From contig CAIIXF020000010.1 of NCBI GenBank assembly GCA_903813345.2, forward strand, positions 13,893,181 to 13,957,180: DNA of 64,000 nt. Direction: 5' to 3'. Below the pieces are notes generated by a model. It saw only the letters and a list, made by a program, of their open reading frames with translations. It made no database searches and was not told where the DNA came from. The translations under genes were made by a program, and so were the position numbers. Origin of the DNA: Owenia fusiformis. Taxonomy: Eukaryota > Annelida > Polychaeta > Sabellida > Oweniidae. Position 1 is the first letter of the stretch. Every line of letters starts with the position of its first letter. This document shows, piece by piece, positions 396 through 38,200 of this stretch.

Positions 396-1209
396 TACAG
401 TTGTATCACTAGATGCAGAGGGGGAATAACCACAGAGTTCAAAGATGATATACGCTTATAATTATGTCACCACCAAAAGTGGTGACATATTGTTATGGTC
501 TCCGTTTTTTTGTGACGGCGGTTGGCGTCAGGTGGTTGGCGTCCGGCGGTTGGCGTCCGGCGGCTGGCGGTTGGCGTCCGGCGTCTGTAACAATTTCTTA
601 CAACTTCCTATAACTTAACAAATACTGTTTAGAACGACTTCAATTTTTTTCTAAATCATCTACATGTTCTCAGAAGTTCAAATCTGACTTAAGATTTGAC
701 ATTTGACCTTCAATGACCTTCTCAAGGTCAAAAAGGTCTTTTTTCAACTTGCTTCACATTGACTAAATTTTTTTTCAAAATCATCTACATGTTCTCAGAA
801 ATTCAAATCTGACTTTAGATTTGACTTTAGATTTGACATTTGACCTTCAAATCTGACTTTAGATTTGACATTTCACCTTCAATGACCTTCTCAAGGTCAA
901 AAAAGGTCAAAAAGGTCTGTTTTCAACTTGCTTCAAATTGACTAAATTTTTTTTTCAAAATCATCTACGTGTTCTCAGGAATTCAAATCTGACTTTAGAT
1001 TTGACATTTGACCTTCAATGACCTTCTCAAAGTCAAAAAAGGTCAAAAAGGTCTTTTTTCAACTTGCTTCAAATTGACTAAATTTTTTTTTCAAAATCAT
1101 CTACATGTTCTCAGAAATTCAAATCTGACTTTAGATTTGACATTTGACCTTTAATGACCTTCTCAAGGTCAAAAAAGGTCAAAAAGGTCTTTTTTCAACT
1201 TGCTTCAAA

Positions 1210-2635
1210 GGAGTTGGGTAAACTAGCAACAGAGAGTGCCCCAATTGAAGTGTGAAAAAACTTTTTTTAAGAATAGGAGAAAAAAACATCAGAAATGCAT
1301 AGATTGAAGTCTATATTTTAGGGTAGTATTTTTAAAAAAGTTTAGAAAAAATTGTTACGGTGTCTGGAGACCTTCAAAGAGGGTGGGGGCCAGAAGGAAA
1401 AAAATTCACATATTTTGCAACCCTCTTGATGAATTCCAATTTACTCAGCTATGAATGAATGTTTTTCATTTATCTGTCCTGGATTATGTAAATATATATT
1501 TATTTGATCCATACATACAATTGATTTAAACAATATGTACAGTTTAGAGGTAAGTAAAGCTTTGAAAGGACATTTCATGCTGAGTCTGGGTGACATTTTT
1601 ATTCACTGGAGGTAGTAATCCTTTGAGTGTTTTCACATAGAGCATAACAAGTCTCCACTCTAATAAGTGCTTCTTTAGTTACATAAATGTTATATTGTTG
1701 CATACAAAGAATAATTTTGATGGAGACTTATTATGCTCGATGTGAATTTTAGAACTTTATAGAAAATTTTGCCTGCCATTTTTGTTGATTATTCAAAATG
1801 GCCAAATGCTATTCATGCTGCATATGTAGGAAGCAAGGGCATTATAAAATTTTAGATGCTAAAATACCTGAAACATCAAGTGGTTATATGTGCACAACAT
1901 CTGAATCAGGTAGTTCAAGTGATAATGAGTAAAACTAATCAGAAAATGTATCATTGTTATTTCATTAACAAGCCAATGATGAAATGTGTTGAGATTTTAG
2001 ATGTTTTTCACATTTTAGGTGATCTCCAAGAAGTGATTATCTCCGTTATCTGTACTTCCTGTTTCCTAGACATTATCAGAATGATTGATAATAAACTTAA
2101 TAGTTGCTTTAAAATTATGTTGAATAATATCATTATGTATTTATATACAGTGTGTGTGTTTAGTGTGTGGTTTTTAGCATACCCTATGTCGCTAACAGGA
2201 AGCAGGACATATTTCTCAAAAATAAACATTACTTTACGAGTCAAATCATGAAATGTACATTCTGAATTTAAATGAATTAAAAATAATAAAGTATTTTCAT
2301 TATGTTAGGTACTTTTGTTCTCTTTCAGTGTTGCGTGGGAAGGGCGGAATATATTAATATAAATATCTCATTATTGGCAAATTGCCAATTTACTATATAT
2401 TGTAATTCCAACCTCTATGAGACTAAATTCCTACAGATATTTGTGATATTTTAACCAAAAAGGTATATTTTGGTAGAAAATAATGATTTTTATTAATTTG
2501 ACCTTGACCTGGGGAATATGACCTTGACCTAAATTTTCATACATTTTTGAAACACATATATCACATAGATTAATAAAATAGAGAGAAAACTTGAAAATCA
2601 GGTGGGGCTTAAAATGGCCTTGTTTACCCAACTCC
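1210..2635. mobile_element. Spy-like DNA transposon inserted between AAA and TTT without target duplication
   Basis: The termini are perfect inverted repeats GGAGTTGGGTAAAC and GTTTACCCAACTCC, directly flanked by AAA on the left and TTT on the right. The related uninterrupted unit near 30655-30680 reads TTCAAATTTACTTAA, which equals the left flank joined to the right flank with nothing duplicated or lost. Precise insertion into AAA|TTT without a target duplication is the published hallmark of Spy elements. The 1.43-kb body lacks a recognisable transposase, so it is probably non-autonomous. An internal inverted repeat of 25 bp (two mismatches) lies at 1635-1659 and 1722-1746. Confidence 0.75.
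1798..1932 (+). CDS. Small Cys-rich ORF inside the Spy-like element, function unknown
   Basis: A 44-residue ATG-to-TAA frame begins MAKCYSCCICRKQGH and ends in an acidic Ser-rich tail SGSSSDNE. The C-x2-CC-x-C spacing followed by His could form a metal-binding knuckle, but no family is recognised. It may be a remnant exon of the transposon's protein or chance. The longer overlapping frame at 1856-2251 has no recognisable features either. Confidence 0.2.
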   Translation: MAKCYSCCICRKQGHYKILDAKIPETSSGYMCTTSESGSSSDNE

Positions 2636-35200: not shown

Positions 35201-38200
35201 GTTGCTTATACCTTCTACTAATAGAATAAAGGACAAAACCTTTCAGAAATTTTGCCATACGGCCTCAGTTCTAATAGATTCGTTGCTATAGTTGGAAATT
35301 CTGAACCAAAAATAGATTGATGACGTCATAATTTATGCAAATTAGATAATTTGCATAATTGAATATCAGAACTTTATTGGAAATTTAACGAGGTTTAATT
35401 TGGTACCAATATCATTTCTATAGACCAAATAATGACAGAGCTACAAATGATTTAAGATACCAAGGTAAGATGTCTAAAGATGCGTAACCATGGTAACTGA
35501 ATGCCGCCATAAAAGTACTATGGGACATTAGTTGGCAATGTTAACAAATGAATTCATTAAATAGACACCCTAGGGATTACAAAAATGTATGTAACTTATT
35601 CACACCTTATGGGTGCATGGGAACCCCTTGTTCCTACTATACTAATCTAATCTGACTGAAAAATTACAACACTGCATTTTTCCGCCTACTTTGACACGGG
35701 TGTTAAAACACGAATATACCATGAGCACATGCTTTAAGGATCCGCGTTGTTTAAACCTACCGCCGAGCACACTTATACATTAAGACCAGTTACACAGTAA
35801 TGATACCGCCGAGCAAGCTCATTGCATCATCGGGTCTGCTTTACCCCCGTGTTGTAGATTAAGTTCATTTCCCATACATACTTCCTTATATGGTTATGTG
35901 GGCTACATTTGATACTTTGAAATAGTTTGTCATAGTCAGAGGGCAGTGGTTTGGCTATTACACACAGGGTAGCTAAGGCTATAATCTTGAATCATTGAAG
36001 CAACACCCACTGGCCTCCTATACTTCCACTAATGTGATCACCAGTTCCGACCTCGCAAACTATGTTCCTTCCACATTACCTGAATATAGATTTTTTCATT
36101 GCCAACCACCAATTCCTCTTTTCCGAACATATTTCTCCATTCGCGAATGAAGTTCCCAAATGAAAACTTAGGTTCATTTCAGAAATTATAATGTGGCAGT
36201 TCAGAAATTATAATGTGACAAGCCTTGCCTATAGGTTATTTTTTCCTTGGAGGGGGTTGCATATGGGTTCTTCTTTTCTTAGGTATTCCGTTACTTGGTA
36301 TTTTGTCACCATATCTATCTCAGTCTCTCAGTCTGTACTTCTAATTTTATGGCATTTTAAGTTCAAGGCTGAGTTTATGGATTACATTGTTTAAGCAAAT
36401 CTTATGATGGTTTCTGTCAGAGGTGACAGTAGCATGGTTTTAGTCATATTGTTTATGAGACACAGGGTTACTTGTCCTGAATAATCCCCTATTACTTTGA
36501 TAATGAAGTCATGAAGCATTGCATAGAATCCAGGCCATTGACGGTATGTCCTGGATGTGGGGCAAATGGATACACCTCCATCCATTGCTTCCTTAGTAAC
36601 AGTGATGTCATTTATTCAAGTGTCACCTATTTAAACTAGCCAGCCCTATAATGTCTATATCTCAAACTATGTACTGTATTTCTGATCATCAGACTGATCT
36701 GATGACATACACTGTATTCTCTGTAATTGAAAATTGAAAATACATCCTTCAGACCATTCTAAGAAGTGCCCATATATGAAAGAAGTAAAAAATCTCTGGG
36801 AATTTCATGTATGGCAATTTTTCCTGCCAAGAATGCCTTTTTTTACAATAATGATATGTATTGCAAGAATCTAACAATGTTGACAGTGATTGAAGAATCC
36901 CCAACAAAGCCCCTAGAATTGAAGGAATTTTTTCCCCCGATTATTTTCCATATTTCTACTAGTTATTGTTGGATATTGATCTAACGTTATACCTTATCTT
37001 TTTAATTATCACACCATCGGTGGGATATAGTCGTCATACTGGTCGTGATCGTGGTCGTGATCGTCCCGCTTTTTGTCATCGCCGTTTAAGGAAAACTGCT
37101 CATCAGATTTTCTCCAAATTCGCAGAGATGATAGAGCATATGAAGTACTAGAGCTGATTAACTTTTTGTTTTCTGGCGGCCATTTTGAAGTTTTTTTTTT
37201 GTCATCGCCATTTCAGGAAAACCGCTCATTGGATTTCCTTCAAATTTACACAAATGATAGAGGATATCAAGTACTAGAGCTGATTAACTTTTGGGCGGCC
37301 ATCTTGTTTTCTGGCAGCCATTTTGAAGATTTTTCGAAAAATCTTGTCATCGCCATTTCAGAAAATCCGCTCATCGGATTTCCTTCAAGTTTACACACAT
37401 GATAGAGGATATCAAGTACTAGAGCTGATTAACTTTTGGGTGGCCATCTTGTTTTCTGGTGGCCATTTTGAAGGTTTTTCGAAAAATCTTGTCATCGCCA
37501 TTTTAGGAAAACCGCTCATCGGATTTCCTTCAAATTTACACAAATGATAGAGGATATCAAGTACTAGAGCTGATTAACTTTTGGGCGGCCATCTTGTTTT
37601 CTGGCAGCCATTTTGAAGATTTTTTGAAAAATCTTGTCATCGCCATTTTAGGAAAACCGCTCATCGGATTTCCTTCAAGTTTACACACATGATAGAGGAT
37701 ATCAAGTACTAGAGCTGATTAACTTTTGGGCGGCCATCTTGTTTTCTGGTGGCCATTTTGAAGGTTTTTTGAAAAATCTTGTTTCTTGTTCTTGAAATTT
37801 GTAAACATAATAGGAGAACAGTTTTCCTGGTTCATAGTGTCTGCCTATTTGATGGTGTGATCTCGTTCACGTCCTTCGCCTTGTTTGATGAAATATTGTC
37901 ATTTTCCGTGTGAAAATCATGTTAAAGGCGACATATGCAGAAATCCTTCGCAAAAACTTTCTTGGTAAAATGCCTATCAAAATTTTTAAATTTCAGAACA
38001 TTTCCTTCATTTATTATAGCTTACTTTGAGATAATATTTGTTTAGTATGATGTTGGAAGCACCTAATGATAGATATTTATCGCCCACTCAAATTTCTTTG
38101 GAAACATGATTATTTCTGATATATTCATTAATACTTGGTCATTTCTCAATATTTCTTTAACTTTGTGAAGTGGGATGGGCACTTATTCAAGAGTAGACGC

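Follow-up and report, generated by a model that had tools for sequence, protein, structure and literature searches.

The 64,000-nucleotide stretch of the Owenia fusiformis genome analysed here (contig CAIIXF020000010.1, positions 13,893,181 to 13,957,180; hereafter the window) contains seven repetitive elements of four families, A to D, which are very probably HINEs, that is, non-autonomous Helentrons carrying satellite-like tandem repeats. All seven were found at the starts and in the single orientation given by the first-pass annotation of this DNA (Table 1). The elements follow a common plan composed of TT, a subterminal motif, a largely perfect inverted copy of that motif, a tandem core, the distant inverted motif, a short tail, and T. 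Every element begins with AT after TT, and the terminal hexanucleotide is GCCTTG in six of the seven (families A, B, and C) and TTGCTG in D. Three of them, A2, B, and A3, are clustered within 3.5 kb.

Table 1. Coordinates of the elements, their main parts, and related features in the window.
Feature	Position	Strand	Description
A1	464-2905	+	Complete element, split by another transposon (1210-2635)
A1 5' subTIR	464-474	+	ATGTCACCACC; inverted copy at 479-488
A1 left-flank short tandem repeats	516-585	+	14/21 bp, microsatellite-like (TRF)
Insertion nested in A1	1210-2635	not assigned	1,426 bp; 14-bp terminal inverted repeats (GGAGTTGGGTAAAC); not part of A1; between AAA and TTT, no duplication
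A1 3' end	2875-2905	+	3' subTIR 2875-2885; stem-loop TGACATTTTGTCA 2880-2892; terminal GCCTTG
D	9504-10404	+	5' subTIR ATCCCACC; 146-bp units; 3' subTIR 10375-10382; end TTGCTG before TTTTT
Probable D-type core relic	11134-11392	+	Short blastn matches, best 70 nt at 78.6%, E 1e-9
A2	27462-28125	+	Older copy of family A; 68-75% to A1/A3 in the core
B	28312-29181	+	12-bp subTIR TATCGTACCTAA 28311-28322; inverted copy 28327-28336
B core and 3' motif	28363-29047; 29150-29161	+	162-bp units; 3' subTIR
C-type core unit closing the array of B	29049-29122	+	79.7% over 74 nt to C; z 10.6
A3	29401-30943	+	Longest A array, 29755-30852
C	37008-37883	+	subTIR ATCACACCATC; inverted copy GGTGGGAT at 37019-37026; 145-bp units; 3' subTIR 37851-37861
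C left-flank 12-bp repeat	37040-37064	+	TRF
A4	39747-39874	+	Short A copy without core; an ALDH7A1-like exon follows ~40 bp downstream
B-type core relic	51315-51569	+	80.7% over 254 columns; no ends seen
subTIR, subterminal inverted repeat; TRF, Tandem Repeats Finder.

The 5' and 3' subterminal inverted repeats (subTIRs) were identical over 11 bp in A1, A2, and A3, 12 bp in B, 11 bp in C, and 8 bp in D, with the 3' copies located 19-22 nt short of the element end, in agreement with the inverted motif previously annotated there. The left arm of A4 is decayed, while its 3' motif and inner copy remain, together with approximately 44 bases of the 5' end and 32 of the 3' end. The inverted copy adjoining the 5' motif was perfect in A1, A3, and B and mismatched at one of eight positions in A2 and C and at two of eight in D. 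Predicted DNA folding energies of the 5' ends were -10.8 kcal/mol for A1 and A3, -8.2 for B, -7.3 for D, -6.1 for A2, -5.0 for C, and -2.3 for A4, and those of the 3' ends were only -1.0 to -2.8 kcal/mol. The T-rich end GCCTTGTT, which had been assigned to families A to C, is valid for five of the six copies because A1 reads GCCTTGTG at its 3' end (2905). Overall, GCCTTGTT occurred nine times on the plus strand and once on the minus strand (simulated means 1.0 and 0.9, respectively), and five of the nine were element ends. Whether the other plus-strand occurrences terminate elements not yet recognized was also considered; the one at 2617 was rejected as lying inside the nested transposon, and the one at 55883 as lying within a coding frame on the minus strand. 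The remaining two are situated at 10477 and 39278, the latter preceded by TGTTAC/GTAACA inverted repeats (39200-39283) and perhaps the end of another element, with no 5' partner found.

The tandem core was present in six of the seven elements, A4 being the exception. The periods determined by Tandem Repeats Finder (TRF) were 136 bp in A (variant 148), 162 bp in B, 145 bp in C, and 146 bp in D; the range of about 145-163 bp formerly given for families A to C thus suits B and C but not A. Clear short repeats were located in the left flank of A1, A3 (29464-29490), C, and D, those of D being of the GTCT/ATCC type and recognized by reading the sequence, and were not seen in A2, A4, or B. Outside the elements, a 33-bp segment at 48112-48144 (plus strand) resembles the core of B (90.9%) and has no ends.

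The predicted insertion between T nucleotides was borne out at every element, since TT precedes and T follows all seven; the base pair on the 3' side is TT in six and TG in A1. A consistent target duplication, which the first-pass annotation had named as excluding a rolling-circle origin, was searched for at the seven elements with lengths k of 3 to 8 bp and compared with random sites matched for TT, and none was found beyond chance level. Flank matches for k = 3, 4, 5, 6, 7, and 8 were observed in 7, 4, 3, 0, 0, and 0 elements, and the corresponding means at TT-matched sites were 6.28, 3.75, 1.66, 0.67, 0.19, and 0.06; relative to unmatched random sites, the count at k = 5 was higher (three against 0.70). 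Regarding coding content, Pfam searches of 10 of the 38 open reading frames of at least 90 amino acids gave no match to a DDE transposase or any other coding match inside the elements, and no Rep coding capacity was seen in the window. Rfam returned no match in the window at the gathering threshold, no tRNAs were found there, and the element ends and cores had no matches in viral contigs and prokaryote genomes.

We identify the elements as HINEs because the subTIRs, the adjacent inverted copy, the short repeats, the array, the TT target, the missing duplication, and the lack of coding capacity all fit, and the resemblance to HINE/Helentron elements noted earlier was supported by each structural feature open to test in the window. 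They are additional members of a kind already published for oyster (PMC7492417) and for mite, mosquito, and fly (PMC4067079). According to PMC7492417, Cg_HINE of Crassostrea gigas consists of a 5' subTIR (normally 11-12 bp), a complementary inverted repeat, a microsatellite, a satellite-like array, a 3' subTIR, and a palindrome, and inserts at TT with no duplication. When compared by description, our elements share with it the 11-12-bp subTIRs, the adjacent inverted repeat, the microsatellite-like left flank, the TT target without duplication, the occurrence of several families side by side, and core units of similar length (138-181 bp in Cg_HINE, 136-162 bp here). In contrast, Cg_HINE occurs in both orientations, whereas seven of seven copies here have one, and apart from family A our elements have weak 3' stem-loops. 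As portrayed in PMC4067079, HINE and DINE-1 elements likewise have subTIRs, an adjacent inverted repeat (DINE-1), a 3' palindrome near the end (as in family A), a T-rich unmodified target, tandem repeats in some copies, and clustering. A core of ~160-bp repeats between conserved flanks also characterizes pearl (CvA, CvE, and CvG of Crassostrea virginica), DTC84, and MgE, as related second-hand in PMC7492417 and PMC11136912.

Several observations weigh against this identification. The 3' palindrome is a defining feature, and the first-pass annotation had reported a stem-loop in all elements; a 5-bp stem was found in A1-A3, but those of B, C, and D (4 bp) are at chance level, and that of A4 is broken. 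Random 45-nt stretches of the window (loop 2-8) formed stems of at least 4 bp in 61% of cases and at least 5 bp in 28%, and therefore the stem-loops of B, C, and D carry little weight alone. Element D lacks GCCTTG and has a subTIR of just 8 bp, where about 11-15 bp are expected of HINEs, and the distance from the 3' subTIR to the end (19-22 nt) is shorter than in mite HINEs, for which PMC4067079 gives 38-60 bp. The 5-bp flank matches, seen in three of seven elements, were all T-rich (TT-matched mean 1.66, P 0.20). No spanning empty sites were found within the 64-kb window for any of the seven elements, and three Rep-motif-2 patterns had no match in its six frames, which lends no support; Rep would be expected to be absent from the elements themselves, since they are non-autonomous copies.

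Among other explanations, the elements could be cut-and-paste transposons resembling miniature inverted-repeat transposable elements (MITEs), with inverted ends read by a DDE transposase. Their inverted termini are short, they do not code, they have a high-copy look, such elements were formerly named MITEs (PMC4067079), and a true transposon with exact terminal inverted repeats lies in the window (1210-2635). This explanation appears improbable to us given the lack of a consistent, fixed-length target duplication, the asymmetry of the ends (an inverted copy at the 5' motif only and a 19-22-nt tail past the 3' motif), and the single, orientation-defining tail GCCTTG. A non-autonomous element of Helitron rather than Helentron type would agree with the absence of duplication and with the 3' stem-loop of family A. 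In Helitrons, the 3' hairpin is a terminator and one strand alone is moved (PMC5876387). However, Helitrons insert between A and T (PMC5876387 and PMC4067079), not at T-flanked sites such as those of all seven elements, and the combination of subTIRs and a neighbouring inverted copy is that of Helentrons/HINEs, which makes this alternative very improbable.

The common plan might also be a coincidence, or the elements plain dispersed satellite arrays, given that AT-rich low-complexity arrays yield many inverted matches and 3' stem-loops are frequent by chance. An earlier, looser inverted-repeat detector was replaced by a stricter version because the tandem arrays swamped its output (183 groups on the plus strand versus 13-31 in 15 simulated strands, with one GCCTTG group in 5 of the 15). 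The strict detector gave 11 matches on the plus strand, comprising the correct pairings of A1, A2, A3, B, C, and D and five others (two A2/A3 cross-pairings, one foldback element, and two within the core of C), and a single match on the minus strand, the same foldback element; 200 first-order Markov sequences gave a mean of 2.72 and a maximum of 10. With GCCTTG required, six matches remained on the plus strand (five elements and one cross-pairing) and none on the minus strand, compared with a simulated mean of 0.01 per strand and a maximum of 1. Since the settings were picked after the elements had been seen, this contrast measures strength and not discovery. The five elements recovered against 0.01 per simulated strand and the sharing of both ends by A1 and A3 at unrelated sites nevertheless leave coincidence hardly credible.

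For HINEs, transposition would depend on a Rep/helicase/endonuclease supplied by an autonomous Helentron at another genomic location; PMC4067079 ties HINEs to such autonomous elements and suggests that nicking takes place in the flanking T tract. By analogy with the systems in PMC7492417, PMC4067079, and PMC5876387, this protein would recognize the 5' subterminal motif and its inverted copy and nick one strand within the flanking T tract. The nicked strand would then be peeled off by rolling-circle synthesis as far as the 3' subTIR and tail and would enter between the Ts of a new target without duplication, and the arrays may arise or alter their length in the course of copying. The protein, the strand polarity, the rolling-circle steps, and any current activity are all presumed in this scheme. 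The window offers a compact example of rolling-circle hitch-hikers spreading satellite-like repeats, mostly in the introns of one gene.

When considering relations among the elements, A1 and A3 were identical at 60 of 60 terminal bases and 96.8% identical over the last 277 nt, with different flanks. Under the rule given in PMC4067079 (identical subTIRs of at least 11 bp for a family, at least 80% over the last 60 bp for a subfamily), A1-A3 form one family, and A1 and A3 one subfamily (100%). Over the last 60 bp, A2 and A4 were 72% and 69% similar to A1, B, C, and D were separate at 52-63%, and B and C agreed at 62%. The families had been described as four unrelated ones, and this did not hold for B and C, which have a common ancestry. 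Homology of their cores is indicated by z 5.2 and 5.0, and by z 10.6 for the last, C-like unit of the B array. Of 40 core comparisons, three had z above 5, all between B and C, on a scale that is not clean because a reverse-strand C-D comparison scored z 4.0. In addition, their tails after the 3' subTIR agree with a score that none of 1000 shuffles and none of 1000 random windows attained. The A-B and A-C tail agreement is weaker (P 0.010 and 0.013) and due partly to GCCTTG itself, the 3' tail of D resembles none of A, B, or C, and the A and D cores showed no convincing relation to other cores. Past the inverted copy at the 5' end, none of the six family pairs reached a shuffle P below 0.01 (best B-D, 0.018), and for this reason we claim no 5' homology beyond ATNNNACC. 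That motif, chosen by eye, occurred at six of six intact starts. Among TTAT sites it was present at 11 of 624 on the plus strand, a count that contains these starts, and at 8 of 589 on the minus strand.

The C-type unit in B represents mixed cores, from which an exchange of cores between termini may be suspected, and common descent explains it equally well. PMC7492417 describes related flanks with unrelated cores in Cg_HINE (group 2), as well as two cores in a row; unlike these flanks, B and C have a common core and tail with differing subTIRs. Such a pair, in which each member has its own matched subTIRs, can serve to test how new HINE families originate. The inner inverted copy of C (GGTGGGAT) is identical to the motif of D. 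A more speculative and, in our opinion, unlikely proposal would join these observations: the four families would be one lineage on the skeleton ATNNNACC, differing chiefly in three middle bases (GTC, CGT, CAC, and CCC), in which the 5' and distant 3' copies always change in step and the inner copy lags. The ends would be kept matched, and families created, by end-to-end pairing or copying at a circle junction and not by the 5' hairpin, and strand-specific targeting would give the single orientation over 64 kb. Should such concerted change of the ends on one skeleton prove real, aligning copies across the genome could reveal what the Rep protein reads.

All seven elements lie on the plus strand, for which two-sided arithmetic gives a chance of 2/128. 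The core relics of B (51315) and D (11134) are on this strand too. Five of the seven are situated, in sense orientation, between exons of an ALDH7A1-like gene on the plus strand, whose exons match alpha-aminoadipic semialdehyde dehydrogenase (E 3.6e-21 and 1.3e-10). A strand-specific target, as described for IS200/IS605 (PMC5371812), is possible, the sample being small and the pattern noticed after the fact. At 39747-39917, the end of A4 lies very close to the splice acceptor of an exon of this gene. Another exon, together with its acceptor, is present in 2.9 copies of a 125-bp unit (17312-17679, 97%), and the last copy alone continues into the remaining exon.

The insertion within A1 separates the 5' half of the element from its 3' part (2636-2905). 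The joined flanks match 18 other A-array places across the join, one of them (30632-30726) at 95 of 95 bases. No transposase was seen in the insertion. It is Spy (PHIS)-like, its AAA|TTT junction without duplication being that described for Spy transposons in PMC4482050. A large foldback palindrome at ~31291-35644 has 1,381-nt arms at 98% (31300-32680 and 34255-35635) around 21-bp repeats, with the similarity ending sharply near TAGTATAGTAGGAACAAGG, and is either a recent element or an assembly product. The gene content of the window is eukaryotic and, in our reading, mollusc-like. Its frames also include Pfam matches to SRCR, GPCR, Spaetzle-like, and LINE zinc-knuckle domains, and the SRCR-domain frame (6663-7595, minus strand) carries a Ser/Thr/Asn-rich stalk of ~44 copies of a 21-bp (7-amino-acid) repeat.

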